Shown: positions 37,710-61,657 of the stretch, piece after piece
How positions within the stretch are numbered: position 1 is the first letter of the stretch
How the letters are laid out: the number at the start of each line of letters is the position of its first letter
Assembly (NCBI GenBank): GCA_003963245.1
Contig: RXJX01000025.1
Coordinates: forward strand, 1-64,000
Source: Neisseriaceae bacterium
GTDB lineage: Bacteria; Pseudomonadota; Gammaproteobacteria; Burkholderiales; UBA11063
DNA: 64,000 nt
Reading direction: 5' to 3'
The notes under the pieces: generated by a model
The model's database searches: none
Seen by the model: only the letters and a program-made list of their open reading frames with translations
Told to the model about the DNA's origin: nothing
Translations under genes and position numbers: made by a program

Positions 37710-37735
37710 AAAAGACCTTACGGTCTTTTTTAATT
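37704..37735. terminator. bidirectional terminator between scoB and aroK
   Basis: A 14-bp perfect stem (37704-37717 with 37722-37735) around a four-base loop, with A6 on one side and T6 on the other. The scoB stop (37707-37709) and the aroK stop (37730-37732) both lie inside the stem, so one hairpin ends two convergent operons. Confidence 0.92.
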
Positions 37736-38254: not shown

Positions 38255-38795
38255 TATCCAAACTACTCGAAATAATCCGCGGAGTTATAAAAATTAATAA
38301 TTCCTTTTTCGCGGTTTTAGTTGATTGTGATTTGAACAACCAGCCTAAATATGGAATATCCCCTAATAATGGTATCTGTTCTTCAACTTTTTGCTGATCA
38401 TCAACATAAATACCACCAACTAAAATTGTTGAGCCATCTTTTACCCGTACCTGCGTATTAACACTGTTGGTATCAATTGAAGGAGTTCCTTGTACCTGTA
38501 ACTTAGTATTCGGACTATCTTTCTGCACTTGAACATTAAGCAAAACATACCCATCATCCGTAATCTGTGGCGTAACCTGCAACGACAATGTCGCATTAAC
38601 AAATGCAACGTTAGTATTACCAGCGCTAGTCGCCTGTTGGTATGGAATCTGTACCCCTTGTTGAATATTAGCTGCCTGATAATTTGCTGTCATTACTTTT
38701 GGACTGGAAATAGTCCTGCCCTGACTTTGCAATTCTAAAGCATCAACTTCCAGGCCAATAAGAGTATTACTATTTGGTGCAAAAATGGTTGACAT
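38244..38795 (-). CDS. C-terminal fragment of PilQ (possible separate translation)
   Basis: The second frame has an internal ATG at 38795 that would give 183 residues of the secretin C-terminus (IFAPNSNTLIGLEVDALELQ through ELLIFITPRII). It has no signal peptide, so it could not assemble in the outer membrane on its own. Its upstream open part extends to about 38880, where it joins the N-terminal frame. It overlaps aroK by 11 bases. Confidence 0.6.
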   Translation of the reverse strand: MSTIFAPNSNTLIGLEVDALELQSQGRTISSPKVMTANYQAANIQQGVQIPYQQATSAGNTNVAFVNATLSLQVTPQITDDGYVLLNVQVQKDSPNTKLQVQGTPSIDTNSVNTQVRVKDGSTILVGGIYVDDQQKVEEQIPLLGDIPYLGWLFKSQSTKTAKKELLIFITPRIISSSLDNDN

Positions 38796-40390: not shown

Positions 40391-40881
40391 TTTTGGATTA
40401 ACTTCAATTGTTTCTTGGCTTGATTATTCTGATCTAGCTTAAGCATAATTTTATTAATAAAGGTTTTCTTATCTTCAATTTGTGGCTCATCAATTTGTGC
40501 AGAAACAGGTGTAATTAAGCTAACTTCGCCATCTTTTATTTTATCGCCAACCTTTAGTTTCAAAGTTTCATAGGGTGTTCTAATAAAAACATAATCCTTG
40601 CCTTCATACTTTAAATATCCCACCATCTGTACTTGATTTAAATTATAACTTTGCAAAATATCTGACTCTCTTCTATCCAAACGGTCCTGACTAAAAATAT
40701 TATCGTACTCAATCATTTTATAGTTTGCTGGCTTAAATGTAAACTCAGGTAGAGCTGGTGGTATATTGGTTGATGGTTTTGCGCGCAAATCCTGAACAAA
40801 CTGCTCTAGATCGCTAGTATCAGCCATTGCCTGTGTTACCACTAACATAAATACAATACCTAATTTAAGCACGTTAGTCAC
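40387..40881 (-). CDS. pilP: type IV pilus assembly protein PilP
   Basis: Links the inner-membrane PilN/PilO pair to the PilQ secretin in the periplasm. The 164-residue length fits. The C-terminal beta domain has QVQMVGYLKYEGKDYVFIRT and LKVGDKIKDGEVSLI. Family members are usually lipoproteins, but here the signal ends in TQAMADTSDL with no cysteine, so it is probably processed by signal peptidase I or kept as a membrane anchor. It overlaps pilO and pilQ by a few bases. Confidence 0.9.
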   Translation of the reverse strand: MTNVLKLGIVFMLVVTQAMADTSDLEQFVQDLRAKPSTNIPPALPEFTFKPANYKMIEYDNIFSQDRLDRRESDILQSYNLNQVQMVGYLKYEGKDYVFIRTPYETLKLKVGDKIKDGEVSLITPVSAQIDEPQIEDKKTFINKIMLKLDQNNQAKKQLKLIQK

Positions 40882-41470
40882 TATAAAAAATCGTTACGTC
40901 ACAACTAATATTAATCTGAGCATCATCAATCCGAGACATCTGAAAATTTGATAATTCCATTACCCGAGGAATTTTAGCAATTTGATAAAAAAATTTAATT
41001 GCATCATCAAAAGTACCACTGGCACTAAGCGAATATACTCTCGAATTGATTTTATCACTTTTCTCAGCTGAAGAATTCTCTTTTGCTACTGCAGGAGACT
41101 TGGGAGTAAAATTTTTTATTTTAAAATCAGAATCTTCAGAGACCTGATTAATCTGAATTAGAACATTTGGAAGTTCTTCTGACGTTGGAAATTGTAATCC
41201 AACCTTAGCAGAAAGGTCATTTAAAGCTGATTCTTTTTCTTTATATAAATCAATACTATTTAACAGTGAAACTTTACGAACAAGATCATCTTTTAAAGTT
41301 TGCTCATCTTGTTGCAATTGAGATAACTTATCTTTATTCTCATAAGTAAAATTTTTATAAATTAGAAAAGACAATACCAACATCAACATCAGAGTAAACA
41401 AAATTAGTGTTGTTATTTGCCACATATAAATGGGCTTGATCTTCAACTTACCTAGATTCAGACTTGCCAT
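40874..41470 (-). CDS. pilO: type IV pilus assembly protein PilO
   Basis: Inner-membrane protein that pairs with PilN. Residues 17-40 form the membrane helix, followed by a coiled coil (residues 45-85) and a ferredoxin-like periplasmic domain with FKIKNFTPKSP and ALSASGTFDDAIKFFYQIA-type strands (here SLSASGTFDDAIKFFYQIAK). Its length of 198 residues is typical. It overlaps pilN by 23 and pilP by eight bases. Confidence 0.9.
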   Translation of the reverse strand: MASLNLGKLKIKPIYMWQITTLILFTLMLMLVLSFLIYKNFTYENKDKLSQLQQDEQTLKDDLVRKVSLLNSIDLYKEKESALNDLSAKVGLQFPTSEELPNVLIQINQVSEDSDFKIKNFTPKSPAVAKENSSAEKSDKINSRVYSLSASGTFDDAIKFFYQIAKIPRVMELSNFQMSRIDDAQINISCDVTIFYSD

Positions 41471-42020
41471 CGGGAACCGCTACTAAATTGGGTTTAATTT
41501 GTACTGTTATCATAAAGTCGTAACTACCATCTGCTCCTAAATTATTAGAAACTAACTCAGGATTATCAAATATACCTTTTTTATCACGCAACTTATCTAA
41601 AAGACTTGCAAGATAAAGCGGGCTTGCAGCAGTACCTGTTAATTGACACATCATTCCGTTCCAGATAATTTGTTTATAGTAAACCTGCTCCGGAGTTACT
41701 TCCCCCAACTGCTGAAAAAAAGTCACTGTATCGTCTCGCTTATCTTCAACAACTTGCAATAAACGCACTTGCTTTCTTATCAGCTCGACTTTTTTATCAA
41801 ACTCTCTAATTGGTTTTAATTTTACATCTACCAGATTAATATTTGTAGTCAAGAACGTATTTCTGGTATTTTGATAAATAATATGTACTTCATAATAACT
41901 ATAAATAATAAAGTTTAAAAATAGTGAAAATACAATACCAATACCAAGAAATAAATAAACCCTTAATTTACCAAAATTAACTTCCTTAATTCGATAATTA
42001 TAAAGATTAATTCTATTCAA
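41448..42020 (-). CDS. pilN: type IV pilus assembly protein PilN
   Basis: Inner-membrane partner of PilO whose cytoplasmic N-terminus docks on PilM. I choose the TTG at 42020, which gives MNRINLYNYR, the match to the family INLLPYR docking motif; GGGGAC lies nearby. A longer frame from 42041 adds seven residues. One membrane helix follows (VYLFLGIGIVFSLFLNFIIY), then a coiled coil and a periplasmic alpha/beta domain. It overlaps pilM and pilO. Confidence 0.88.
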   Translation of the reverse strand: MNRINLYNYRIKEVNFGKLRVYLFLGIGIVFSLFLNFIIYSYYEVHIIYQNTRNTFLTTNINLVDVKLKPIREFDKKVELIRKQVRLLQVVEDKRDDTVTFFQQLGEVTPEQVYYKQIIWNGMMCQLTGTAASPLYLASLLDKLRDKKGIFDNPELVSNNLGADGSYDFMITVQIKPNLVAVPDGKSESR

Positions 42021-43095
42021 TTTTCTGTCCCCAAGTTGCAAGAGAAATCGCTGTTATTATCCGCAAGAGATCCAATTCAGGAATATAAGAATTTCCACCT
42101 TGAAATAAGCTAGTTATTGATTTAACATCAGCTTTAGTGTAGTTTATAACTTTATCAATTAACCCAGGAATAACCGTATTTCCACCCATTAATATAATAG
42201 GTACATTAGCAGACAGCGTAATCTTTCTTTCAACCAGTAAATTAGAGCGAATCAATTGCAATATCTTAGTTATGTCAGATAACATTAATTCAACAAGCTG
42301 GTCATCTGTTATTTGTTTTTCATTTAGTAATTTTAAGGTTTGACTATAAATATCCGTAACATCTTGTAATCTTACCTTCTGGTCTAACTGTAAAAATATC
42401 TCTTCAAACATATGGTGATAATTAACAGCAATCTCATTGAAGATAATTGATTCACAATTATCAAAGACAAAAGCTCTGATTTTGGTTGCACCTAAATCCA
42501 ACAAAATTACTTTACCATCAATCTTATTTCTACGTAACAGTAACTTTAGCAAATGTTGTATCGCAAATGGTTCAACATCAATTGCTGCAACCTGAATACC
42601 AGTCATTTGTATAATAGCCTGATATTCCTCAATTTTTTCCTTTTTTGCCACCACAACTGATAATAGCTGCTCACTTGCTTCTTTATTGACTATTGAATAA
42701 TCAAAATCAATATCATCAGTATCAAGCTCTTTAATTAATTGTTCTAAAATAAATTGATCTAATTCGTATTTATTTTTAAATAGCGGCGCTTTTACTTCTT
42801 TAATGATTATCGCATTATATGGTATTGAAATAGCTACATCACGATTAGTTGGATTCAATTTAGCCCATTGATCACTAATAATATCAGATACTTTTTCAAT
42901 GTCATTAATAACACCTTCATTAACCATGTTTTTTGCTAATGGGGCAATTGTATATTTAGCTATCTTAAGTGTATTTGGCACCAACTCAACCATTTTAATT
43001 GCAGTAGAAGCAATATCTAATCCAACGCAAGCTGGGGTTTTATAACCAACTATAATACTTTTTATTTTACTAATGTACTGATGTATTTTTTTCAT
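42013..43095 (-). CDS. pilM: type IV pilus assembly ATPase-like PilM
   Basis: A cytoplasmic actin-like protein that binds PilN. The phosphate 1 motif is CVGLDIASTAIKMVEL, the phosphate 2 region is VILLDLGATKIRAFVF, and the adenosine site is PIILMGGNTVIPGL. The 360-residue length is standard. It begins the pilMNOPQ-aroK operon, just downstream of a terminator that ends the small lipoprotein gene, so the operon promoter must be close (within the terminator to start interval) or use read-through. Confidence 0.93.
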   Translation of the reverse strand: MKKIHQYISKIKSIIVGYKTPACVGLDIASTAIKMVELVPNTLKIAKYTIAPLAKNMVNEGVINDIEKVSDIISDQWAKLNPTNRDVAISIPYNAIIIKEVKAPLFKNKYELDQFILEQLIKELDTDDIDFDYSIVNKEASEQLLSVVVAKKEKIEEYQAIIQMTGIQVAAIDVEPFAIQHLLKLLLRRNKIDGKVILLDLGATKIRAFVFDNCESIIFNEIAVNYHHMFEEIFLQLDQKVRLQDVTDIYSQTLKLLNEKQITDDQLVELMLSDITKILQLIRSNLLVERKITLSANVPIILMGGNTVIPGLIDKVINYTKADVKSITSLFQGGNSYIPELDLLRIITAISLATWGQKIE

Positions 43096-43101
43096 AACTT
43101 A

Positions 43102-43137
43102 CAACAAAAATTAGCCAAGCAAAAGCTTGGCTAATTT
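43102..43137 (-). terminator. Rho-independent terminator of the small lipoprotein gene
   Basis: A 13-bp perfect stem: AAATTAGCCAAGC (43108-43120) with GCTTGGCTAATTT (43125-43137), four-base loop. On the minus strand it continues into TTTTTGTTG. It separates the small lipoprotein from pilM, which starts only 12 bases further on. Confidence 0.85.
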
Positions 43138-43151
43138 CAGTAAATATTAAA

Positions 43152-43373
43152 TTACTTAGCAGCTGACGCTTCCGGAGCTGATGCTTCAGCAGCGGCAGGA
43201 GCTGACGCTTCAGTAGCAGCAGGAGCTGACGCTTCAGCAGCAGGAGCTGACGCTTCAGCAGCAGCAGGAGCTGACGCTTCAGTAGCAGACGCAGCAGGAG
43301 CAGAAGACTCTTGATTGTGAGAACAAGCAACCAAAGCAAGACCAGCAACTAATACAGCTAACAATTTTTTCAT
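43152..43373 (-). CDS. small Ala/Ser/Pro-rich lipoprotein with EASAPAA repeats
   Basis: A 73-residue lipoprotein: lipobox LVAC with Cys17, then SHNQESSAP followed by five or more copies of an EASAPAA-like unit. It is encoded by 21-30 bp tandem repeats at 43177-43299. An AAAGG lies before the ATG and a strong terminator follows, so it is expressed as a single gene. The signal MKKLLAVLVAG matches the exported peptide at 3198, hence a likely paralogue. Its low complexity suggests a spacer or surface role. No function is known. Confidence 0.75.
   Translation of the reverse strand: MKKLLAVLVAGLALVACSHNQESSAPAASATEASAPAAAEASAPAAEASAPAATEASAPAAAEASAPEASAAK
43177..43299. repeat. 21-30 bp tandem repeats inside the lipoprotein gene
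   Basis: Five units start with GCTGACGCTTCAG (the first with GCTGATGCTTCAG): 43177-43200, 43201-43224, 43225-43245, 43246-43269 and 43270-43299. All unit lengths are multiples of three, so gain or loss of a unit keeps the frame. Copy number is likely to vary between strains. Confidence 0.85.
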
Positions 43374-43503
43374 ATTTATTTACCTTTCAGAATTTTATTT
43401 ATTTTATTGTTTTAAAACAATCACCATGAGGCGTATTTTATCATACAAAGTAATGCAGAGACTAAATTAATCCAATAATCAAATCAATTTAGTCAATAAA
43501 ATA

Positions 43504-43938
43504 TTAGCTTCTTCGTGATTGTTTATGTAAATAATCAACAGCTTTTAACTGTGCAATTATTAATTCAAGTGCAGCATAAGCTTTAACATCATCAACGTCC
43601 ATACTAACATTAGAACGTTTAAGTCGCTCTTCTGCAATACGTTTTTCTTCCAATAACTTAGCTTCATCTAAATCATCAGTACGTTCAACAACATCAGCCA
43701 ATACTGTAACTTTATTACCTTGGATTTCCACGTAGCCACCAGAAATAGCATAAACCAAATGCATTTCTTTTTGTGGTAATTTGACACGCACAACTCCAGG
43801 ACTCAATTTACTAATTAATGGAATATGGTGCGGATAGATACCAATTTCACCTTCAGAACCTGGAACTACAAGAAACTCAGCTTCACCAGAGAAAATTTGT
43901 TCTTCCGAACTAACCAAATCAACCTGCATGGTAGTCAT
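43504..43938 (-). CDS. atpC: ATP synthase F1 epsilon subunit
   Basis: Central-stalk subunit that couples rotation and can inhibit hydrolysis. The N-terminal beta sandwich shows VPGSEGEIGIYPHHIPLIS and AISGGYVEIQGNKVTVLAD. The C-terminal helical hairpin follows (EAKLLEEKRIAEERLKRS). At 144 residues it is standard. It is the last gene of the atp operon, 10 bases after atpD. Confidence 0.95.
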   Translation of the reverse strand: MTTMQVDLVSSEEQIFSGEAEFLVVPGSEGEIGIYPHHIPLISKLSPGVVRVKLPQKEMHLVYAISGGYVEIQGNKVTVLADVVERTDDLDEAKLLEEKRIAEERLKRSNVSMDVDDVKAYAALELIIAQLKAVDYLHKQSRRS

Positions 43939-43948
43939 AACATCCCCA

Positions 43949-46227
<2,279 letters not shown>

Positions 46228-46254
46228 TTTATATCCTTATGAAATAACAGCTAA

Positions 46255-47796
46255 TTAAACCGCAAAAATTGTTTTAAACTCATTTAACGCTTTAACCAAA
46301 ATCTGTTCATCATCTTTAGACAAATCACCACTTGCTTCAATTCTAGCTAATACATCAGCACAATTAGACTCTGCATATGACATAAACCCAGATTCAAAAG
46401 CCAATGCTTTATCTACTGGAATAGAATCATAGAAGCCATTATTAATTGCATATAAAGTTAAAGCCATTTCAGAAACTTTTAGCGGAGAATATTGCTTTTG
46501 TTTCATTAATTCTGTAACTACCTGACCATGACGCAATTGTTTACGAGTTGCATCATCCAAATCAGATGCAAACTGAGCAAATGCTGCCAATTCACGATAC
46601 TGAGCTAATGCCAGACGAATACCACCACCTTGTTTTTTAATAACTTTGGTTTGAGCAGCTCCACCAACCCGTGATACTGAAATACCAGGATTCATTGCTG
46701 GACGAATACCAGAGTTAAATAAATCAGTTTCCAAGAATATCTGACCATCGGTGATAGAAATCACGTTAGTTGGTACGAATGCGGATACATCACCAGCTTG
46801 GGTTTCAATAATCGGCAAAGCAGTTAATGATCCTGTTTTACCTTTTACAGCACCATTAGTAACTTCTTCGACATAATGTGCATTAACACGAGCAGCACGT
46901 TCCAATAAGCGAGAATGTAAATAAAACACATCCCCAGGATAAGCTTCACGCCCAGGCGGACGACGCAATAATAATGAAATCTGGCGATAAGCAACTGCTT
47001 GTTTAGATAAATCATCGTAAACAATCAAGGCATCTTCGCCTATATCACGGAAATACTCACCCATCGAGCAACCAGAATAAGGTGCAAGATATTGTAATGC
47101 AGCTGACTCAGAAGCCGATGCAGCAACTATAATTGTATGAGCTAAAGCTCCATTCTCTTCAAGTTTACTAACCACATTGGCAATTGATGAATTTTTCTGA
47201 CCAATCGCAACATAGATACATGTAACCCCAGTACCTTTTTGGTTAATAATAGCATCCAATGCTACTGCAGTCTTACCAGTCTGACGATCACCAATGATTA
47301 ATTCACGCTGACCACGCCCAACCGGAACCATTGAATCAACCGCTTTTAAACCACTTTGCAATGGTTGACTAACAGATTGACGCGCAATTACACCAGGCGC
47401 CACTTTTTCAACTGGAGCAGTTAGTTTTGCATTGATTGGACCTTTTCCATCAATAGGACGACCAAGTGCATCGACAACGCGTCCAACCAATTCAGGACCA
47501 ACTGGTACCTCTAAAATGCGACCAGTACAAGATACTTCATCGCCTTCTTTAATATGCTCATAATCACCAAGAACCACAGCACCGACAGAGTCGCGCTCCA
47601 AGTTCATTGCCATACCATAAACATTCCCGGGAAACAGAATCATTTCCCCTTGCATAACTTCTGATAAACCATAAATACGAACAATACCATCAGTAACCGA
47701 TACTACTGTACCTTTACTGCGATAGTCACTACTATTTTGAGTGCCGTCGATTTTTGATTTAATAATATCACTAATTTCAGAAGGATTTAATTGCAT
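46255..47796 (-). CDS. atpA: ATP synthase F1 alpha subunit
   Basis: Non-catalytic nucleotide-binding subunit, 513 residues as in E. coli. The Walker A motif is GDRQTGKTA, the Arg finger lies in [12 protein letters not shown] region, and [15 protein letters not shown] is the ATPase alpha/beta signature. The N-terminal crown domain starts [17 protein letters not shown] precedes the ATG. Confidence 0.97.
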
Positions 47797-47811
47797 GAAT
47801 CGCTCCTATTT

Positions 47812-48348
47812 TTATTTAGTAAGTTGAGTAGATAAATCATTTATTCTACCCTTAACGGACCCATCAATAACTTTATCATTGATAGTAATTTTGATTCCAG
47901 CTAATAATTCAGGGTTAATTACTACTGTTGCAGTAATCTTCTTGCCAAATTTTTTAGACAACAAATCTTCAAAGTCTTGTTTCTCTGCCTGACTCATTGC
48001 ATAAGCTGATTCAATAATTGCATCACCACGCTTTTGATCTTCAAGAACTAAATTACGAAAGACTTCATAAATTTCAGGTAAAACTGAAACCCGATTATTC
48101 TCAATCAACACAGTCAAAAGATTCGTAACTTCTGCTGAAGCTTTATCCTTTAATAATGCATTAATCACAGAAATAACTTGCGAATCCTCAATTTTCGGAC
48201 TATTCAATAACTCAGAAAATTGGGGATCAGCAACAATTTGTTGCAAATCAGATAATCTACTGAGCCAAGCATCTTCTTGTTTTCCTTGCTTTGCTAAGTT
48301 AAACAATGCTTGTGCATATGGATGCGCAATTATACTCAATTCTGCCAT
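47812..48348 (-). CDS. atpH: ATP synthase F1 delta subunit
   Basis: Connects the peripheral stalk to the top of the F1 head. The N-terminal helical domain begins AELSIIAHPYAQALFNLA, a typical OSCP/delta start, and the C-terminal part has the signature VVINPELLAGIKITINDKV. The length of 178 residues is standard. Confidence 0.95.
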   Translation of the reverse strand: MAELSIIAHPYAQALFNLAKQGKQEDAWLSRLSDLQQIVADPQFSELLNSPKIEDSQVISVINALLKDKASAEVTNLLTVLIENNRVSVLPEIYEVFRNLVLEDQKRGDAIIESAYAMSQAEKQDFEDLLSKKFGKKITATVVINPELLAGIKITINDKVIDGSVKGRINDLSTQLTK

Positions 48349-48353
48349 GATTA

Positions 48354-48824
48354 TTATAACTCCGCTTTAAGCTGAGCTAAAATTTTCTCATGTCTAGATT
48401 GATCAATTTCAACACGCAGAATCTGCTCAGTACCACGTATTACTAAATCAGACACACGAAGTCGTAAATCTTCTTTCATACGTACAAAATCTTGTTCAAT
48501 CTGAGATTTAGCATCAGCAATAATTTTATCACCTTCGATACGAGCACGCTCTTTTGATTCTTCAATAACTTGATTGGCTCTTTTTTCAGCATTTGCAATT
48601 ATTTCACCTGCGCGAGCTTGAATTTTCTTCAACTCTTCGGCGATATTTGCTTCAGCATCCAGTAATTGTTGCTTACCTTTTTCAGCAGCAGCCAAACCAT
48701 CATTAATTTTGCTTGCGCGTTCTTCAAGCATACCACTAATCGGTGGCCAGACAAATTTCATTGTAAAGAGTACCAACAAAATGAAGGTAATCATTTCTCC
48801 GAGCATTGTTGCATTAATATTCAC
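48354..48824 (-). CDS. atpF: ATP synthase Fo b subunit
   Basis: Peripheral stalk. A single membrane helix (LGEMITFILLVLFTMKFVW with a Pro-Pro break) is followed by a long charged helix with Ala/Lys/Glu repeats (about residues 30-150). The 156-residue length equals E. coli b. One copy only, so it is a homodimer. Confidence 0.95.
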   Translation of the reverse strand: MNINATMLGEMITFILLVLFTMKFVWPPISGMLEERASKINDGLAAAEKGKQQLLDAEANIAEELKKIQARAGEIIANAEKRANQVIEESKERARIEGDKIIADAKSQIEQDFVRMKEDLRLRVSDLVIRGTEQILRVEIDQSRHEKILAQLKAEL

Positions 48825-48853
48825 GAGGAATCTCCTTTAAATATTAATTACGA

Positions 48854-49150
<297 letters not shown>

Positions 49151-49188
49151 CTAAAAAATTAAAAACAAAAAACACCGAACAATAAAAA

Positions 49189-50369
<1,181 letters not shown>

Positions 50370-50408
50370 GATTATAGCATAAATCTAATTTTTTTATTAC
50401 GCAAAAGC

Positions 50409-51782
50409 TCATTGCTTACGCCAAATTGTGCCATTTTTACTATCCTCCAAAATAATATTGTTGGATAATAACTCTTCACGAATTTTATCCGATAAAATAA
50501 AATCGCGATCTATCCGTGCTTGGTCACGTCTTGCTATCATTTCTTCAATAACTTGAGATGATAATTCAACACCTGACTGTAGAAATTTTTGTGGACTATT
50601 ACTTAATAAACCAATTGTATTGGCTAATCTATAGAGTAATTTCGCCAATTCAGAATTTTTAGTACGATTAATTTCATTAACTAATTCAAATAGTATACTA
50701 ATCGCTAACGATGTATTAAAATCATCGTCCATAGCATTTTTAAAATTTGCTGCATAATTAATAGACCAGTCTATTTTATTAACATCACAAATATCATCAT
50801 CAAAATTATATTCGCGCAAGGTTTGATAAAGTTTACTAAGGCTATTTTTTGCATCTAACAAATTATCATAACTAAAATTTAATGGGCTGCGATAATGACT
50901 TTTTAACATAAAATATCTAATTATTTCAGGATGATATTTATTTAAAACATCACGAAGAGTGAAAAAATTCCCCAAAGATTTAGACATTTTTTCATCATTT
51001 ATGTTTAAAAAACCATTATGCATCCAATAATTAGCAAACTGACACCCATTATGTGCTTCACTTTGGGCGATTTCATTTTCATGATGTGGAAATTGTAAGT
51101 CTTGACCACCACCATGAATGTCAAAATTTTTACCTAAAATGTCCTCCGACATTGCTGAACATTCTATATGCCACCCAGGTCTTCCATTTCCAAAAGGAGA
51201 ATCCCAATAAATTTCGCCTTGTTTTGACGCTTTCCATAAAACAAAATCTAATGGGTCTTCTTTATTAAGGTCAACTTCTACACGTTCACCAGACTTTAAG
51301 TCATCTAAAGATTTTCCCGATAATTTGCCATAACCTACAAATTTACGAACACGATAGTAAACATCTCCGTTTTTTGCTTGGTAAGCATAATCTTTATCGA
51401 TGAGATCTTGAATTATCAAAAGCATCTGAGGTATATATTCAGTAGCTTTTGGTTCATAATCTGGACGCATTACCCCTAAAGAAGAAAAGTCCTCATGCAT
51501 ATATTTTATATAGCGTTCGGTTAATTGATAAATAGTTTCATCATTTTCTTCTGCACGGCGTATTATTTTGTCATCTATATCAGTAATATTTTCAATAAAT
51601 AGTACCTTATAGCCACTTGCTATGAACCATCGGCGTACCATATCAAACACAACTGCTTTACGGGCATGACCAAGATGACAATAGTCATACACAGTTTGCC
51701 CGCAAACATACATCTTAACTTCATTATGTTTAATTGGTACAAAATTTTCTTTTTGTTTAGATAAGCTATTATAAATTTTCAT
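50409..51782 (-). CDS. cysS: cysteine--tRNA ligase
   Basis: Class I aminoacyl-tRNA synthetase. The HIGH motif appears as [10 protein letters not shown], the zinc-binding Cys in [13 protein letters not shown] and [11 protein letters not shown] with [10 protein letters not shown], and KMSKS as [10 protein letters not shown]. The 457 residues match the family. It lies between atpI and ntrX in a continuous minus-strand run; a 39-base gap precedes atpI. Confidence 0.97.
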
Positions 51783-51813
51783 AAATTAACTATACTTATT
51801 ATCCACTTAAATA

Positions 51814-52395
51814 TTATTTAATTTTAATACCTAAATTTTTAAATTTACGATATAAATGTGCTCTATCTACACCTGAAACTTCTGCAATTTTAGTTATATT
51901 ACCTTTTTGCTTATTCATGTGATATAAAAAATATCTACGTTCTAAAGTTTCTTTAATTCCTTTTAGTTGATTATTCAAATCAAGTGTAATAATTTCTGAG
52001 ATATCTTCTAAAATTCCATCACTATTAGTACGCTCTTTTAAAATATGCTTATCAACTAACGGTAATAATTTGCTTAATGAAAGTGGTTTTTCAAGAAAAT
52101 CTCTGGCACCAATCCTAATTGCTTCAAGCGCACTGGTTATTGAGGCATGTCCAGACATCATGATAACCGGAGCGGTGATACCATTAGATAAAAATCTTTT
52201 AAATAATGATACACCATCCATATCAGGTAACCATACATCCATCAAGATTAAATCAAATCGATGCTCCTTAACTATTTTATCAGCTTCCAACGCATTTTCA
52301 GCTAATTTTACAACGTAACCTTCATCCTCTAAACACTCGCGAAGTAACTCGCGAATGCCAAGCTCATCATCCACAATTAATATTAATTTATCCAT
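51814..52395 (-). CDS. ntrX: response regulator, short NtrX type without AAA+ domain
   Basis: A 193-residue regulator. The receiver domain has Asp9-Asp10, phospho-acceptor Asp53 (LILMDVWLPDMDG) and Lys in FLEKPLS. After a linker the C-terminus is a Fis-type helix-turn-helix (GNITKIAEVSGVDRAHLYRK). The receiver matches NtrX, but the sigma-54 AAA+ domain is missing, so it should act as a simple DNA-binding regulator with sigma-70, like the Neisseria protein as I recall it, or RegA/PrrA. It follows ntrY with a 10-base gap. Confidence 0.85.
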   Translation of the reverse strand: MDKLILIVDDELGIRELLRECLEDEGYVVKLAENALEADKIVKEHRFDLILMDVWLPDMDGVSLFKRFLSNGITAPVIMMSGHASITSALEAIRIGARDFLEKPLSLSKLLPLVDKHILKERTNSDGILEDISEIITLDLNNQLKGIKETLERRYFLYHMNKQKGNITKIAEVSGVDRAHLYRKFKNLGIKIK

Positions 52396-52405
52396 TTATT
52401 CTAAC

Positions 52406-54526
52406 CTATAATACAGTATTTTGACTAATAAGTGGTAATTTTACTACTACATTAGCACCGTTGTCATTAAATACTTCAATTTTACCATTATGTTCATCAA
52501 TAATTTTCTTCACAATAGCCATTCCAAGGCCACTTCCTTTGACTCCTTTAGTAGTACGGTATGGTTCAAATAAGTTTTCCATTATTATACTTTCAAAACC
52601 ATTTCCATTATCTTTAATTGTAATCCCTAGATGTTCATTTTCAATATTTAAAATAATTCTAATTGATTTATCTTCAATATTTTCAATGCTTTCTATTGAA
52701 TTTTTTAATAAATTATGAAAAACTTGTCTTAGTAAACTTGAATCTCCCATAATCGAAATTTCATTTTCGGGTATTTTTACTTCAAATTTTATATAGTTAA
52801 TATTTTCATATAACGCCAAAAATTGATTAAAAAAATGAACCATTTCTATTTTAGATAAACTAGGTTTATTTATATTAGCAAAATCCCTAAATTTATTAAC
52901 TAAATCTTTTAAATCCTCCACTTGAATAATGATTTGTTTAACTAACCTTTGCAGAAAAATTTGATCTTCACTTGCTAGCTTAGGAATCAGCTTCATTTCA
53001 ATTCGTTCTGCCGACAATACAATTGGTGTTAATGGATTTTTTATTTCATGAGCCAAACGCTTTGCAATATCAGCCCAAGCCTGATTTTGTTTAGCTTTAA
53101 TCAAATTTGTTACATCACTTATTAAAGTCATATATTGACTATTTTCATGAGTTTTAAATTTTACTGTCTTAATGTACAAATTTTTAATATTGTGCTTATT
53201 ACGCACAATCACATTTTCTTCCCACTCATTATTTTGTTTTGAATTAATTTCAATTATGTTTATTAAATCTTCAAGATGAGGATACAAATTTCCCCATTGG
53301 TTTAAAGGAGTTCCTTTTACATTTTCTAATTCTATATCGAGTATACTATGGCTTATTATGTTAATACTTTTAACAACATAATCCTGATCATAAACAAGAA
53401 CACTTAAATTTAAATTATTAATCAAATTCTCAAGAAAGTTTTTCGAAGCTGTAATTTGATCTTTTTGAAATTTTTCTAATTTTCGTACGCGGTCTAGATT
53501 ATGACTCATCTCATTGAAAGAAGTTATTAATTGTGATAATTCATCATTACCTTGAAATGAATTATTATTTGAGAAAGAACCTCTTTTAATTAATTCAATA
53601 TTTTCAATTAAATTACTTATTCTTTTAATCAAATATTGAGAGAAAAACATTGACAATAACACAGCTATTGAAATTGATAATAATACACTTATAATTAACG
53701 TACTAGTATATACATCCTTTAAATGATCTTTATTATTAAGTAATCCTAGATATAACTCTTTATTTTGAATTAGTTTAGTATTATCTATTCGAATAAAATC
53801 TGGTGCAAACTGAGTTAATGCTATTATCTTATTATTGTCATAGAATTGATAATAATAAAATAAATAATTACCACTATTATCTTTATTTATTTCATAATAA
53901 TAACCTGAGTTTTTTATTTTATCAATAATGTACTTTGGTAATAATTTAGGAAAATACTTACTATCATTTTGCTTGTCTTGTAGTTCTAATACACCATTTT
54001 CTTTATAGATAGTTAAACTAGTAACATCTAAAATATTTCGAATTTTAGCTAAATCTGCTTTATCATCATTCTTATCAACTAATTTTAAATATTCTGCTGC
54101 AATTACTGATTTTTTCCGTAATTCTTTAGAAAAGTATTTAATACTTTCTTCGGCTATATTAAAACTATTATCAAATAATTCTTCTATTTGAGGATTAAAT
54201 AAACGATTAACTGTATTATCAATAAAATAATTTGCAATTTTTATATTTATTAATGATGGTATTACTATAACTGAAGATAAAAGAATAAATATTTTTTTTG
54301 TTATTCTTGAACCAAAAATATAACTACTTCTAAAAAAAATTTTATAGACAAAAAATATAATAGTTACAAATAGTAACACTTCAATAACACGATTAAGCTG
54401 AATAATTTCCTTATAATCATTCAAGTATAACATAACATCATACTTTGAATATATTGTTACATAAAAATAGCTAAAAATTATTAATATAAATAATACTATT
54501 ATAAATCCAATATTAGTTCTTTTCAT
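52406..54526 (-). CDS. ntrY: sensor histidine kinase NtrY
   Basis: A 706-residue membrane kinase. Three N-terminal helices (residues 7-28, 45-65, 78-100), a periplasmic region of about 180 residues, another helix near 285-305, then HAMP (LIKRISNLIENIELIKRGSF), PAS (residues 375-480), HisKA with RLAHEIKNPLTPI, and the HATPase (NLLKNSIESIE, DNGNGF, GSGLGMAIVKKI). It pairs with the short NtrX next to it. In related bacteria NtrYX controls respiration and nitrogen genes. Placed after rsmB as in Neisseria. Confidence 0.9.
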   Translation of the reverse strand: MKRTNIGFIIVLFILIIFSYFYVTIYSKYDVMLYLNDYKEIIQLNRVIEVLLFVTIIFFVYKIFFRSSYIFGSRITKKIFILLSSVIVIPSLINIKIANYFIDNTVNRLFNPQIEELFDNSFNIAEESIKYFSKELRKKSVIAAEYLKLVDKNDDKADLAKIRNILDVTSLTIYKENGVLELQDKQNDSKYFPKLLPKYIIDKIKNSGYYYEINKDNSGNYLFYYYQFYDNNKIIALTQFAPDFIRIDNTKLIQNKELYLGLLNNKDHLKDVYTSTLIISVLLSISIAVLLSMFFSQYLIKRISNLIENIELIKRGSFSNNNSFQGNDELSQLITSFNEMSHNLDRVRKLEKFQKDQITASKNFLENLINNLNLSVLVYDQDYVVKSINIISHSILDIELENVKGTPLNQWGNLYPHLEDLINIIEINSKQNNEWEENVIVRNKHNIKNLYIKTVKFKTHENSQYMTLISDVTNLIKAKQNQAWADIAKRLAHEIKNPLTPIVLSAERIEMKLIPKLASEDQIFLQRLVKQIIIQVEDLKDLVNKFRDFANINKPSLSKIEMVHFFNQFLALYENINYIKFEVKIPENEISIMGDSSLLRQVFHNLLKNSIESIENIEDKSIRIILNIENEHLGITIKDNGNGFESIIMENLFEPYRTTKGVKGSGLGMAIVKKIIDEHNGKIEVFNDNGANVVVKLPLISQNTVL

Positions 54527-54602
54527 TTATTAATACCCAAATATTGATAACTTAAACATTTAAAATATATCTTATATAAATGTATACTCGTCAATAATAA
54601 AA

Positions 54603-55820
54603 CTATAAAGCAATTTTTTTTACTAATGCATAATACAATGAGTCATTATATTCCGTTGGATAAATTTGTAATTCATCAATTATATTAAAACCTTTAATGT
54701 TTTCCCTAAACCATAATAAATTATCTTGATTTTCTTCACGAAAAATAGAACAAGTTATATAAAGTAAAAATCCATTATACTCTAAACATTCCCACATGTT
54801 TAGAATTATTTTACGTTGTGTTTCTACAAATTTCAAAACATCATTATAGCTTCGATTTATTTTTATATCTGGATTTCTTTTAATTGTTCCACTTGCAGAA
54901 CATGGTACATCAGCAACAACTAAATCAACTTTTTCTTTATTCCACCAATTTTTATTTCCAGCATCACCAACTAGTACTGTTGCTTTTAGATTTAATCGAT
55001 TTAAATTTTGATTTATTTTTTCTAATCGATTATTATTAATATCTAGGGCAATTAATTCACAATTATAATTTTCTAATATTTGACAAGCCTTACCGCCAGG
55101 TGCAGCACAAGCATCAATTACTTTTCGTGGAATAACATTATTCTTATTTAGAAAATCCACCAAATATTGTGCCGCTATATCTTGTATACTAACATCACCA
55201 ATACTAAAATTAGGTATATCCTTAATATTTAAGGGTTGATTTAAGCATATTTTATTTGTTATTACTTTATAGTTAATACCACTATTATCAAGTATTAATA
55301 AATATTCTTGCACCGATTTATTTCTATTATTTACCCTCAATCCAAAAGCTGGATGAAAATTAAAACCTTCAAGAAAAATTTTATATTCTTTTTTATATTG
55401 TTTTTTTAAAATATCAATTATCCAATTAGGTATATTATATTTTAAAGAATAATTCTTCTCAACTGCTTTTTTTAACAATTCAGAATTTCTTTGATATTCA
55501 CGCAATAACCAATTAATAAATTTTTTACTACTTACGTTTGAAATATCGACTAAATTATTTACTACAGCATATTCTGGTTTATTACTTTCATTTAACTCAA
55601 ATATACCTATCTGGGCTAAAAGCAGATCTTTCTTTGATATATTTTTAGTTATATTTTCTATATAAAAATTTATCGAAAAATAATTACGAATAACACCATA
55701 AACTAAAAATTTTATTTTAGCTATATTATTTTCATTTTTATAATTAGATAACTCTTCACTTAGATTCTTACCATTATATACATTAGTTAATATATTTATT
55801 ACAGACTTATATTCATCCAT
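54603..55820 (-). CDS. rsmB: 16S rRNA m5C967 methyltransferase RsmB
   Basis: The N-terminal RNA-binding domain is NusB-like (residues 1-135). The SAM site reads DACAAPGGKA and ALDINNNR; the catalytic Cys is in DVPCSASGTIKRNPDI and a second in YITCSIF. The 405 residues are slightly short. The gene begins just left of a parS-like site (55846-55861), which lies in the 48-base gap between it and fpr. The gene is A+T-rich, like all genes close to the origin candidate. Confidence 0.93.
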   Translation of the reverse strand: MDEYKSVINILTNVYNGKNLSEELSNYKNENNIAKIKFLVYGVIRNYFSINFYIENITKNISKKDLLLAQIGIFELNESNKPEYAVVNNLVDISNVSSKKFINWLLREYQRNSELLKKAVEKNYSLKYNIPNWIIDILKKQYKKEYKIFLEGFNFHPAFGLRVNNRNKSVQEYLLILDNSGINYKVITNKICLNQPLNIKDIPNFSIGDVSIQDIAAQYLVDFLNKNNVIPRKVIDACAAPGGKACQILENYNCELIALDINNNRLEKINQNLNRLNLKATVLVGDAGNKNWWNKEKVDLVVADVPCSASGTIKRNPDIKINRSYNDVLKFVETQRKIILNMWECLEYNGFLLYITCSIFREENQDNLLWFRENIKGFNIIDELQIYPTEYNDSLYYALVKKIAL

Positions 55821-55845
55821 TTATATTTACAACTTTATTTTTAAA

Positions 55846-55861
55846 TGTTTCACATGAAACA
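55846..55861. other. parS-like centromere site 1
   Basis: TGTTTCACATGAAACA differs from the classical bacterial parS (TGTTTCACGTGAAACA) at one central base. It lies between rsmB and fpr and has extra flanking symmetry, AA before and TT after. Site 2 at 59642-59657 is its exact reverse complement. ParB is expected to bind here. Confidence 0.85.
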
Positions 55862-55868
55862 TTTTATA

Positions 55869-56645
55869 TTACCAATAATTTTCAACTGCCATATTACCAG
55901 GATTTCCTCTTTTTGATACTGTAAGACCTCGATCTGATAACATATGTCTAGTATCACTTACCATTTCTGGGTTACCACAAATCATAATCCTACTATTTTC
56001 AATAGTAATTGGAATATTCACAAATTTTTCAAGTTCACCATTTTTTAATAACTCAGTAATACGCCCATAAAGATCTCCGCCAATATTTTCTCGAGTTACA
56101 ACCTTAACATAAATTAATTTATCTTTAACCAAATCGCCATAGTATTCATGGCTAAAAAAATCATTTATAGTATCTTGATATGCTAATTCTTCAGCAGTTC
56201 TTACACCATGGACAAGTATTACTTTATCATATTGTTCCCATATGGTAAAATCATACAAAATTGAAATAAAAGGTGCTAAGCCAGTACCGGTTGATAAAAA
56301 CCATAAATCTTTACCATTCTCAAATCGATCCGTTGTTAATAATCCATAATTAGTTTTATCTATATATATATCATCGTTAATTTTAAGGTTTTTTAAGCGT
56401 TGAGTAAATTCACCATCCGGAACAACAATTGAATAAAATTCTAATTCTTCATCATAATCTGCAGACACAATTGAATAAGGTCTCCAAACAATAGAATCAT
56501 CTTCTTTTTTTACTCCAAGTCTAGCAAATTGACCTGGAATAAATTTAAAAGCTTCATTTCTTGTTATTCTAAAACTAAATAAATGATCAGTCCATTGTTT
56601 TAAATATGTTATTTTCTCTATAGTATATTTATTTTCTTTACTCAT
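55869..56645 (-). CDS. fpr: ferredoxin--NADP+ reductase
   Basis: A 258-residue FAD enzyme that moves electrons between NADPH and ferredoxin or flavodoxin. FAD binding is seen at RPYSIVSADYDEELEFYSI and the NADP domain at LSTGTGLAPFISI; the protein ends in an aromatic residue (NMAVENYW), typical of bacterial FNR. AGGATATACC precedes the ATG. It is the first minus-strand gene left of the AT-rich island and transcribes away from it. Confidence 0.92.
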   Translation of the reverse strand: MSKENKYTIEKITYLKQWTDHLFSFRITRNEAFKFIPGQFARLGVKKEDDSIVWRPYSIVSADYDEELEFYSIVVPDGEFTQRLKNLKINDDIYIDKTNYGLLTTDRFENGKDLWFLSTGTGLAPFISILYDFTIWEQYDKVILVHGVRTAEELAYQDTINDFFSHEYYGDLVKDKLIYVKVVTRENIGGDLYGRITELLKNGELEKFVNIPITIENSRIMICGNPEMVSDTRHMLSDRGLTVSKRGNPGNMAVENYW

Positions 56646-57106
56646 GGTATATCCTCACTAATAACAACCCGCAATTTTATCATTTATAAATTATTTATAT
56701 AATATATATACTTTATTATGATTATTAATTACTAATATTAGTGTTAATATCTAATAAATATTAAATTAAAACAAAATATTATTAATATTTTAAAATAGTT
56801 AGTAATTAAATATTAAAGTAATTGTATTTTGTTGATATTATTAAATACTACTATTTAGCTGTTAATAAGTTAATACTTGCTAACATTTAAATACAAATTA
56901 ATTAACAAGTAATAAGAACAAAATATTTTAAATATTATTAATATTTATTTGAATTATAGTTATTATTAATAATATAATACTTATATATATTATTATAATT
57001 ATTAATGAGTATTATCTATGTTATTAAGTTATATTTTTATAATAATATCAAATAGTTATAATATGTTTAACTGGGTTAACATTAATATTGATTAATATGT
57101 TTATAT

Positions 57107-57115
57107 TGTTGATAA
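57107..57115 (-). promoter_or_regulatory. near-match DnaA box
   Basis: TGTTGATAA on the plus strand reads TTATCAACA on the minus strand, one base from the TTATCCACA consensus. It lies 60 bases left of the perfect box. Confidence 0.45.
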
Positions 57116-57174
57116 ATAAATAGATAAAAATTATTTTGTTAGTAATATAAATTTATTAACAGTTGTTTATTGAT

Positions 57175-57183
57175 TTATCCACA
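57175..57183 (+). promoter_or_regulatory. perfect DnaA box
   Basis: TTATCCACA is the strong-affinity DnaA consensus. It sits at the right end of the AT-rich island, 25 bases before the waaC start. A one-mismatch TTATTAACA lies at 57153-57161. Confidence 0.7.
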
Positions 57184-57207
57184 ATTATCTGTTAGTAAAT
57201 AAACTTA

Positions 57208-58170
57208 ATGATTAAAAAAATTCTTATACTTAGATTATCTTCGATTGGAGATATTCTCCACACTATGACTGTGTTACCTGATATAAAACAAGTATTACCA
57301 GACTCTGAAATTGATTGGCTGGTAGATAGTAACTTTGAAGGTATAGCTAAATTATCACCTTTGATAGATAATGTAATTTCGATTCCTTTAAGGAAATGGA
57401 AAAGAAATAAATTTAGTTGGCTATTTAAAGTATTACAATTTAGAAAATCAACAATAGATAAAAAATATGATTATATAATTGATACTCAAGGATTAATAAA
57501 ATCTGCAATTTTAGCTAAATTTCTTTTTAATGGTAAAGTATATGGTCTTGATTATGCCAGTGCTCGTGAAAAATTAGCAAGTTGTTTTTATAATTATAAA
57601 TACTGTGTTAATCAAAATGCGGTTGCCGTAATTAGATTGCGGGGATTAATAGCAAAAATATTTGATTTACAAAATAACTTAAAAGAATTCAGTTTTATTA
57701 TTAATACAATTAATCCTAAGTTAAATTTTGATAATTATATACTGATTTTACATGGTACTTCAAAGGAAAGTAAGAAATGGGATTTAGATAATTGGCTATA
57801 TTTAGTTAATTGGTTTATTGAAAATACTAATAAAAATATTGTTGCTACATATAGTAATTCTGATGAGTTAAATTTTGTAACTAGACTAAATGAAAAATTA
57901 ACTAATAGTAGATTTTTAGTAATTGACAAGCTCAATTTTTCTGAATTAAGCGGCGTAATAAAACAAAGTAGCTTAGTTATTGGAGTGGATACAGGTTTTA
58001 CCCATATGGCTAATTTATTAAAAGTTCCAACAGTAGCAATTTATTTAGATAGTAAACCATCTTATGTAGGAATTTTAGAAAGTGAAATTGGTTTTAATTT
58101 AGGTGGATATAAGCAAGAGTTAAAACCAAATGAAGTAATTAATTGTATTACACAAAATAAACTGATATGA
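57208..58170 (+). CDS. waaC: lipopolysaccharide heptosyltransferase I
   Basis: Adds the first heptose to Kdo in the LPS inner core. The N-terminus (KKILILRLSSIGDILHTMTVL) and DIDWLVDSNF-like segment (EIDWLVDSNFEGIAKL) match the family, and the C-terminal GT9 domain has VIGVDTGFTHMANLLKVPTVAIY. The 320 residues are normal. It is the first plus-strand gene right of the origin candidate. Confidence 0.93.
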   Translation: MIKKILILRLSSIGDILHTMTVLPDIKQVLPDSEIDWLVDSNFEGIAKLSPLIDNVISIPLRKWKRNKFSWLFKVLQFRKSTIDKKYDYIIDTQGLIKSAILAKFLFNGKVYGLDYASAREKLASCFYNYKYCVNQNAVAVIRLRGLIAKIFDLQNNLKEFSFIINTINPKLNFDNYILILHGTSKESKKWDLDNWLYLVNWFIENTNKNIVATYSNSDELNFVTRLNEKLTNSRFLVIDKLNFSELSGVIKQSSLVIGVDTGFTHMANLLKVPTVAIYLDSKPSYVGILESEIGFNLGGYKQELKPNEVINCITQNKLI

Positions 58171-58410: not shown

Positions 58411-59675
58411 GATTAGTTTATTCACTAATTACGTATTTATTAGCACCTTTATTACCTTTGTATTTATTGAAGCGTGGCAAAAAAAATCCAGCATATCTAC
58501 ATAATTGGAATGAACGTTTTGGTATAAACTTAAAAAATTCTTATAGTAAACCAATAATATGGTTACATTCCGTTTCTGTTGGTGAAACTAGGGCAATGCA
58601 AAAATTAGTTGAATTAATTTCTCGCAAATTACCTGATTATCAGATTTTAATTACGACAATGACGCCAACAGGAAGACAAACTGCGCAGGTTTTATATCCA
58701 CAGGCAATTATTCATTATATTCCTTATGATATTGGTTTTTGTGTAAGGAAATTTTATAATAATTTTAAACCAAAATTTGGAATAATAATGGAAACTGAGA
58801 TTTGGCCTAATTTAATTCATTTTGCTGAGCGCTATAAGCTTCCTTTGTACTTGGTTAATGCCAGACTATCAAATCGCTCATATAATGGCTACAATCGCTT
58901 TAAAAAGCTATTGTTGCCGATATTAAATCAATTTACAGGAATACTCTGCCAGGATGATAGTAGTAAAAATAATTTTTTTAAGCTTGGCTATGGCGGAAAT
59001 TTAAAAACTATAGGTAATACCAAATTTGATTTAGTATATGATAGTGCAAACGATATTAAGATAAAAGAATTAGAGCAGTTATTTGATGATCGTAAAATTA
59101 TTACATTTGCATCTACCAGAGATGGTGAAGAAGAGATTTTATTAAATAATATTGATTTAGATCAAGATGTTATTTATTTGTTTATTCCACGTCATCCAGA
59201 AAGATTTATTGAACTTGAGAATTTACTAATAAAAAATAATATAACCTATTGTAAACGTTCTGAAAATAAGAGAATAGATTCTGAAACTAAAATTATGATT
59301 GGTGATAGCATGGGTGAAATGCTAGCTTATTATGCGCTTAGTTATTTTGTTATCATCGGTGGTAGTTTTAAAGAATTTGGTGGGCAAAATCCGATTGAAG
59401 CAATTTATATGAATAAACCTGTGATTTTTGGTAGTTCAATGTTTAATTTTGCAGATGTTGCGAAAAATTCCATAAATACTGGATGTGCAATACAAATTAA
59501 CTCTCTATCTGAATTAAAAATATTAATTAATAATTTAATTGAAGATAATGATAAATATAATAATTTAAAAGTATATTGCTCAAAATTTATAGATGAATAT
59601 TGCGGAGCTTCTGAAAAAATATTTAATATAATATTTGAGAATGTTTCATGTGAAACATTTAATGGTGTGGTGTAA
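58407..59675 (+). CDS. waaA: 3-deoxy-D-manno-octulosonic acid (Kdo) transferase
   Basis: Attaches Kdo to lipid A precursor at the inner membrane. A membrane anchor (residues 4-21), ERFGINL, then WLHSVSVGETRAM and TPTGRQTAQVLYP, which are conserved in KdtA. The C-terminal half has IIGGSFKEFGGQNPIEAIYMNKPVIFG. The 422 residues are typical. The 3' end contains the second parS-like site as part of the coding sequence (NVSCETF). It overlaps the small ORF upstream. Confidence 0.95.
   Translation: MRLVYSLITYLLAPLLPLYLLKRGKKNPAYLHNWNERFGINLKNSYSKPIIWLHSVSVGETRAMQKLVELISRKLPDYQILITTMTPTGRQTAQVLYPQAIIHYIPYDIGFCVRKFYNNFKPKFGIIMETEIWPNLIHFAERYKLPLYLVNARLSNRSYNGYNRFKKLLLPILNQFTGILCQDDSSKNNFFKLGYGGNLKTIGNTKFDLVYDSANDIKIKELEQLFDDRKIITFASTRDGEEEILLNNIDLDQDVIYLFIPRHPERFIELENLLIKNNITYCKRSENKRIDSETKIMIGDSMGEMLAYYALSYFVIIGGSFKEFGGQNPIEAIYMNKPVIFGSSMFNFADVAKNSINTGCAIQINSLSELKILINNLIEDNDKYNNLKVYCSKFIDEYCGASEKIFNIIFENVSCETFNGVV
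59642..59657. other. parS-like centromere site 2 (inside waaA)
   Basis: TGTTTCATGTGAAACA is the reverse complement of site 1 and differs from consensus parS at one central base. It lies in the last 40 bases of waaA and is translated as VSCET. The two sites are 3.8 kb apart and flank the AT-rich island. Confidence 0.82.
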
Positions 59676-60428: not shown

Positions 60429-61076
60429 ATGAGTGCAAAAGTTATAGTTGTAACAAATCAAAAAGGTGGTTGTGGGAAAACAACCCTAACCATGAATTTA
60501 GCGGGTACTATTGGTCTAAACGCAAAAGTATTATTGATTGATGGTGATCCTCAAGGAAGCGCAACTCGTTGGGCTTATAGTAGTAGTGATGATAAACCAT
60601 TTCCTGCTGCTGTTATGAGTTTGGCAAATGTTACTGATAAAGTGAATCGTGAAATTAAGAAATATCTTGAAGATTATGAATATATATTTGTTGACTGTCC
60701 ACCAGCAATTGACAATAATTTCACTTCTTCTGCTTTATTAATTGCTGATTTAGCTTTAGTGCCTGTTATACCTAGCCCAACCGATTTGTGGGCGGCAGTT
60801 GGAATTCAAAAATTGATTTCTAATGTAAGCGAGATAAACGATAAACTTGTGTCGCGTTTAGTTGCTAACATGTGTCAAAGTAATATTAGCATATCTAAAG
60901 AAGCTTTGGAATTAATTACTGAATTTGACTTTCCTAAAACTGATACCGATATTTATCAACGAACTGCGTATCGTCAGGCTGCTGCGTTTGGTGGAACAGT
61001 GTTGGATTTAGATAATCAGAAGGCAAAATTGGAAATAAGTGATTTAGTCAAAGAAATTTTGGCAATATTAAATTAA
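60429..61076 (+). CDS. orphan ParA-family ATPase
   Basis: A 215-residue ParA/MinD-family ATPase without the N-terminal DNA-binding helix-turn-helix. It has the deviant Walker A with signature lysine (QKGGCGKTT), the A' motif DGDPQGSATRW, and Walker B FVDCPPA. It is shorter than Soj-type chromosomal ParA (about 255) and resembles ParF/McdA-type ATPases, which position plasmids or cell organelles. No parB follows; the next gene, 20 bases on, encodes a charged, phasin-like protein that may be the adaptor. Located 3.2 kb from the origin candidate. Confidence 0.88.
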   Translation: MSAKVIVVTNQKGGCGKTTLTMNLAGTIGLNAKVLLIDGDPQGSATRWAYSSSDDKPFPAAVMSLANVTDKVNREIKKYLEDYEYIFVDCPPAIDNNFTSSALLIADLALVPVIPSPTDLWAAVGIQKLISNVSEINDKLVSRLVANMCQSNISISKEALELITEFDFPKTDTDIYQRTAYRQAAAFGGTVLDLDNQKAKLEISDLVKEILAILN

Positions 61077-61096
61077 AATTATCAGGAGTAATTAAA

Positions 61097-61657
61097 ATGG
61101 CAACTAAATTAACCTCATCATTAAGAAAATCAATTAATGCAGAAAAACAAAGTGTCGAAGACAAACAACCGGAAATAAATAAGAAACGAGTTGTTCGTAA
61201 GACTGCCACAAAGCCAATAGAAGTGCCTAAAGTCGAAAGCACAGAGCTTCCAGTGGAACCTATGAAATCTGAAATAGCGAAAGATATTAAACTGGCAGCT
61301 AAAACTGATAATGCAAGTGTGCAAGTTGAAACCAAGAAATCTGTGGGACCAATACTTGAATTAGGAAATATTAGCCCATTTTTGCAAAAAAATATGGATA
61401 TGATAAAAAATTCAAATGCTGAAATTACTAACTATAGTCATGAGTTTATTTCTTCTTTTTTAGAAAATTTATTGGTAATTAATGATGATTTAGCTGATTA
61501 TATAAAAAAATTGCTAGATATAAAAAATGTAAGTAATATACACAACGTTAATTTGGAGTTTTTAACAACATTACGTAAAAGACAAAAAGAACTTATTGAT
61601 AAGAATATGCAATTAACCAGTCAGTTGGAAATATTTAAATTACCAAAATTGTTTTAA
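61097..61657 (+). CDS. charged disordered + helical protein, phasin-like partner of ParA
   Basis: A 186-residue protein with two parts. The first ~90 residues are rich in Lys, Glu, Pro and Thr with no hydrophobic core (NKKRVVRKTATKPIEVPKVE). The last ~90 are helical and resemble a phasin-type granule-binding domain: ISPFLQKNMDMIKNSNAEI, DIKNVSNIHNVNLEFL, and KRQKELIDKNMQLTSQLE. AGGAG precedes the ATG. The gene is 20 bases after the ParA ATPase and followed by a terminator, so the two form one operon. Adaptors of ParA-type ATPases often have a basic disordered end that stimulates ATPase and an end that binds cargo. Homology is not proven. Confidence 0.65.
   Translation: MATKLTSSLRKSINAEKQSVEDKQPEINKKRVVRKTATKPIEVPKVESTELPVEPMKSEIAKDIKLAAKTDNASVQVETKKSVGPILELGNISPFLQKNMDMIKNSNAEITNYSHEFISSFLENLLVINDDLADYIKKLLDIKNVSNIHNVNLEFLTTLRKRQKELIDKNMQLTSQLEIFKLPKLF

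Follow-up and report, generated by a model that had tools for sequence, protein, structure and literature searches.

A candidate chromosomal replication origin in the fpr/waaC gap, distant from dnaA, in an Aquella-like bacterium

Genomic context of the fpr/waaC intergenic region

The window analysed here comprises positions 1–64,000 of a 70,084-bp contig (C18) from a draft genome of 2.82 Mb in 54 contigs (G000). Near its right end, two divergent genes are separated by a 562-bp gap, and the three features are arranged as follows:

55869–56645, minus strand: fpr, ferredoxin–NADP+ reductase, left flank (NF008178, 6.4e-58, below the model cut-off; adjoins the origin in congeners)
56646–57207, no strand assigned: candidate oriC, comprising the entire gap that separates the divergent genes fpr and waaC (13.3% G+C, stability, contig skew minimum, equivalent gap in eight congeners)
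57208–58170, plus strand: waaC, heptosyltransferase I, right flank (TIGR02193, 5e-83, above the cut-off)

The initial annotation had given a G+C content of about 12% over 480 bases for this gap, and the very low value is borne out, with 13.3% over the whole gap and 10.8% in its best 480-bp stretch. Whether stretches of 100, 200, or 480 bp are compared, the one lowest in GC within the window lies inside the gap, which also contains the window's least stable DNA at each of the four sizes tested (50–560 bp), a property expected of the easily opened element of an oriC. To the left, only minus-strand genes are found from 37,730 to 56,645 (18.9 kb), in agreement with the nearly 19 kb reported before; the plus-strand genes said to lie on the right run from 57,208 only as far as 61,657, after which the genes are again on the minus strand. 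The sign change in GC skew and the switch in gene strand coincide at the gap.

Two genes of the minus-strand block deserve separate mention. pilQ (38244–40390) is split into two overlapping frames, and in the closed genome of a congener (G017) it is also frame-shifted, about 150 bases further on, where a G run is one base shorter than the reading frame needs; a sequencing or assembly error in each genome is possible. A 193-aa NtrX-like response regulator (51814–52395) has its match to NtrX mainly within residues 1–120 and is 95–99% conserved in the congeners G014, G017, and G002.

DnaA boxes and a five-box array with fixed spacing

The gap contains the perfect DnaA box TTATCCACA that had been placed at 57175–57183, a sequence with an expected count of 0.00 that was found as often in 1 of 300 shuffles, and holds four copies of TTATNNACA vs 0.94 expected (as many in 5 of 300 shuffles). 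Three further boxes had been described as having one mismatch, which is correct for 57107–57115 (TTATCAACA), while those at 56860–56868 and 57153–57161 (both TTATTAACA) have two. The number of perfect boxes was considered as an origin marker and rejected, as 49 perfect sites occur genome-wide and the gap was singled out not by their count but by box spacing. Of the boxes in the window's species, a single one is perfect and several are degenerate; the box count alone is thus modest for the window, and the case is made by spacing, conservation, and skew. Five boxes in the right part of the gap form an array:

57107–57115, minus strand: right-array DnaA box 1, TTATCAACA, one mismatch
57137–57145, minus strand: right-array DnaA box 2, degenerate TTACTAACA, conserved spacing, 30 bp after box 1
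57153–57161, plus strand: right-array DnaA box 3, TTATTAACA, inverted, 16 bp after box 2
57175–57183, plus strand: right-array DnaA box 4, perfect TTATCCACA, 22 bp after box 3
57190–57198, minus strand: right-array DnaA box 5, degenerate TTACTAACA, 15 bp after box 4

The resulting pattern (minus, 30 bp, minus, 16 bp, plus, 22 bp, plus, 15 bp, minus) was searched for in 23 genomes, allowing at most three mismatches and using the reversed pattern as a control. The array was recovered in nine genomes, the window's own and those of eight congeners, once in each, and the reversed control in none of the 23. The copy at 57107–57198 has two mismatches and is the sole match in G000; similarly, the copy at 161475–161566 is the sole match in the closed congener and has no mismatch. 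The array is therefore a single site per chromosome that is conserved among relatives, as is expected of an oriC, and the spacing of its boxes is constant across congeners while the intervening sequence diverges. This fixed-spacing array (30/16/22/15 bp), which was missed by the initial annotation, is the strongest sign of an origin at the gap.

Conservation of the gap among relatives

In the eight congeners, the equivalent gap measures 335–804 bp with 15–19% GC, and the order fpr-gap-waaC is common to all of them. DnaA boxes are enriched over dinucleotide shuffles in each of the nine genomes compared, including seven perfect boxes and 12 copies of TTATNNACA in G007 and five perfect boxes in G005. 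In G004 and G021, boxes were found upstream of fpr, with waaC not seen in the fetched stretch. The array of G009 lies on a second contig (G009:C237:3062-3153), which carries another waaC homologue; with 5% contamination listed for this genome, the assembly may be mixed (two strains). Beyond the genus, no boxes were present upstream of the fpr homologues of other families, where the GC content is ordinary.

Alternatively, the AT-rich gap in front of the lipopolysaccharide genes could be foreign or silenced DNA in which DnaA boxes arose by chance, given that the neighbouring genes are likewise AT-rich (22–29% GC at 53–60 kb) and that waaC is less conserved than fpr. The gene order shared by the eight congeners, the excess of boxes over shuffles in every genome, and the retention of box spacing amid diverging sequence argue against such an explanation, which is extremely improbable.

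GC skew and the dnaA locus

A chromosomal origin at the gap leads to the expectation of a minimum in cumulative GC skew at this place. In the window's own genome, where skew was computed within the one 70-kb contig, the cumulative minimum of the whole contig falls at 56,711, inside the gap. The closed congener is a single contig of 2,820,660 bp, from which 39 stretches (480 kb of 2.82 Mb, 17%) were sampled with interpolation between them, and its whole-chromosome cumulative skew, taken from the terminus side, has a minimum near 160 kb and a maximum near 1.49 Mb. Single-base skew over 140–240 kb of the same chromosome places the minimum at 161,127, approximately 120 bp inside the start of fpr, and the minima fall at the fpr/waaC gap (161,246–161,586). 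No match to the usual dif pattern of related proteobacteria was found in three genomes at up to three mismatches, and the terminus is placed by skew.

In the window's genome, dnaA is found not on C18 but on contig C3, as the first gene of a dnaA-dnaN-gyrB operon with a phasin-like gene upstream, these names being assigned from the sequences. The dnaA gene of the closed congener is at 208.7 kb, 47 kb from its fpr/waaC gap. When the 600 bp upstream of dnaA were searched for TTATNNACA or a one-mismatch variant, no box was present in seven of nine genomes (G000, G014, G017, G007, G009, G021, and G005), and a single weak box was present in each of the other two, G012 (TTATTAACA) and G016 (TCATCCACA). 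The GC content upstream of dnaA is ordinary in the nine genomes, none of which has a box cluster adjoining the gene, and a better origin next to dnaA was accordingly not found.

These results bear on the possibility that the true origin lies beside dnaA and that the gap serves only as a divergent promoter that is rich in A+T, with DnaA boxes scattered across it. The intact dnaA-dnaN-gyrB genes on C3, a local change in skew near dnaA in the closed congener (207–208 kb), and a perfect box at most 151 bp upstream of dnaA in 7 of 13 other families of the order would all fit an origin at dnaA, although such a box does not by itself locate the origins of those families. This arrangement is nevertheless very unlikely in the present lineage, in view of the near absence of boxes and the ordinary GC upstream of dnaA, the cumulative skew minimum at the gap and not at dnaA, and a box array that is unique to the gap in both G000 and G017. 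Separately, contig C1 of genome G037 gave 21 DnaA-domain matches, mostly nearly identical short frames of 266–279 aa, which are presumably repeated insertion-sequence ATPases.

Candidate AT-rich opening elements

Two AT-rich stretches of the gap resemble DnaA-trio elements in degenerate form:

56696–56741, minus strand: left AT-rich opening element, degenerate DnaA-trio-like run (CTAATATTAGTAATTAATAATCATAATAAAG then TATATATATTATATA on the minus strand), assigned from sequence and the homologous place in congeners
56969–57027, minus strand: right AT-rich opening element, degenerate trio-like run with a weak box-like TTAATAACA at 57019–57027, assigned from sequence and alignment to congeners with clear elements

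At the place homologous to 56696–56741, congeners have runs of three to five TAA/TAG triplets adjoining a box. More generally, G007, G009/G002, G014, and G017 contain a DnaA box followed on the same strand by a spacer of 11–17 bp, three to five TAA/TAG triplets, and TATATA-type DNA. Under a strict definition (a DnaA box, a spacer of at most 16 bp, and at least three trios, TAA or TAG only), the element was found in G007, G009/G002, and G014; in G017 the spacer measures 17 bp. Shuffles matched the box-spacer-trio element in 0–1 of 200 cases, except in G014 (15 of 200). Counting TAA and TAG only, no run of three trios was found in the window, G005, G019, or G016.

Apparent tandem duplication of the origin unit

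Local alignment of one half of the gap against the other identified two similar copies, and a second, weaker register of the array falls at the left one:

56677–56847, no strand assigned: left of the two unit copies, preceding the right one by 277 bp
56954–57122, no strand assigned: right copy of the duplicated unit (the part aligning to the left copy)
56830–56838, minus strand: left-unit box 1, ATATCAACA, two mismatches, from the second-best register of the array, which precedes the right array by 277 bp
56860–56868, minus strand: left-unit box 2, TTATTAACA, two mismatches, from sequence and the second-best array register
56877–56885, plus strand: left-unit box 3, degenerate TTGCTAACA, from the second-best array register

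The two halves of the window's gap align with a score of 87 vs a shuffle mean of 45.5, and none of 200 shuffles did as well. The same comparison revealed a duplication in G009, G007, and G005 (0 of 200 shuffles each), a weak one in G014 (9 of 200), and none in G017, G019, and G016. In all five duplicated gaps, the second-best placement of the array lies one period (275–300 bp) before the best, which indicates that the duplicated unit includes the opening element as well as the boxes. Judging from these alignments, the window's species and several relatives seem to carry the whole unit (opening element and box array) as a tandem duplicate. An exact 17-base repeat (AAATATTATTAATATTT) previously noted at 56774–56790 and 56930–56946 is indeed present, and an exact repeat of this length occurred in 1 of 500 shuffles; as the repeating unit of the origin it was rejected, because its period is 156 bp vs 277 bp for the unit and G014 showed no exact counterpart of it.

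The duplication can be read in two ways, both of which are compatible with an oriC at the gap. The origin may be a head-to-tail duplicate of a complete initiation unit (period ∼275–300 bp) in which both copies are able to open, giving two neighbouring opening sites, a tentative and rather doubtful proposal. That only the right unit works, the left resemblance being a decaying leftover or a convergent AT-rich sequence, has a somewhat better than even chance of being correct; the left array of the window has kept three weak boxes and lost the last two, three congeners have no duplication, and that of G014 is weak, with 9 of 200 shuffles as good. Against the latter reading stand the second-best array located one period before the best in five of five genomes, and the perfect box adjoining a TAA/TAG run in both copies of G007, where the left copy is consequently not decayed.

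parS-like sites and partition genes

Sites resembling parS were sought in G000, G017, and G016 with the sequence TGTTNCACGTGNAACA at no more than one mismatch, with the reversed sequence as a control. Two sites, the only ones in G000, were found in the window:

55846–55861, no strand assigned: parS-like site TGTTTCACATGAAACA
59642–59657, no strand assigned: parS-like site TGTTTCATGTGAAACA, inside waaA

These sequence matches lie within 2.5 kb of the gap, one on each side, as near-origin parS sites would. Similarly, the closed congener has a single parS-like site 2.7 kb from its origin, and two of the three sites in G016 flank its array within 2.5 kb. The reversed control matched once per strand in G000 and not at all in G017 or G016. 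Each genome has one ParB gene, which in G017 is located at 2.31 Mb and not near the origin. About 3 kb from the origin of the window, the plus-strand stretch 60429–61657 encodes a partition ATPase of the ParA family (NF041546) and, after it, a 186-aa protein that matched no NCBIfam model; no parB adjoins them.

The fpr/waaC gap as the probable oriC

Taken with the skew minimum at this place and the lack of a box cluster at dnaA, the evidence supports the earlier proposal of an origin between fpr and waaC and away from dnaA, and the gap at 56646–57207 can be regarded with high confidence as the chromosomal oriC of this Aquella-like bacterium. In the proposed course of initiation, DnaA-ATP would bind the five-box array at 57107–57198 and probably also the weaker copy at 56830–56885, and a DnaA filament would grow into the adjoining AT-rich element (56954–57027 and/or 56677–56741), where the duplex would open. 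The helicase would then be loaded and two forks would move outward, passing through fpr and the atp operon on one side and through waaC on the other, after which ParB on the parS-like sites at both sides would move the new origins apart.

A published description of Aquella oligotrophica (PMC6612550) mentions neither oriC nor dnaA, and a search of literature titles and abstracts brought up no account of an unwinding unit duplicated in tandem. As far as these searches reach, the fixed array, the tandem unit, and the location of the origin in this lineage are new, although a DoriC prediction of the A. oligotrophica site may already exist. The oriC of the Aquella lineage is placed in the fpr/waaC gap, away from dnaA, and the fixed-spacing array provides an origin marker that can be used in draft genomes. 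Relatives with one or two units also form a natural series in which any effect of duplicating the opening element on initiation control could be examined.

Comparison with known origins

In the basal unwinding system (BUS), a DnaA box is followed by a spacer and DnaA-trios (PMC8287927; PMC6669920), with spacer lengths peaking at 10–13 bp (PMC8287927). The elements of G007, G009/G002, G014, and G017 have the same order, and their spacers of 11–17 bp are close to the published lengths; the element of the window's species differs in being degenerate and falls below the strict definition.

Origins separated from dnaA are already known. Those of the E. coli type combine an AT-rich element with an adjacent DnaA box array, are flanked by mnmG and mioC, and lie tens of kb away from dnaA. 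The fpr/waaC gap likewise has an AT-rich element beside a box array and, in the closed congener, is 47 kb from dnaA, but it differs in its flanking genes, in its 30/16/22/15 spacing, and in the duplication of its unit in some species. The bipartite origin of Bacillus subtilis has two differing DnaA box clusters flanking dnaA. Such an arrangement has also been described in Helicobacter pylori (PMC8235120). The present origin resembles both in having two DnaA box clusters, whereas here these belong to two similar head-to-tail units within one gap that does not contain dnaA.
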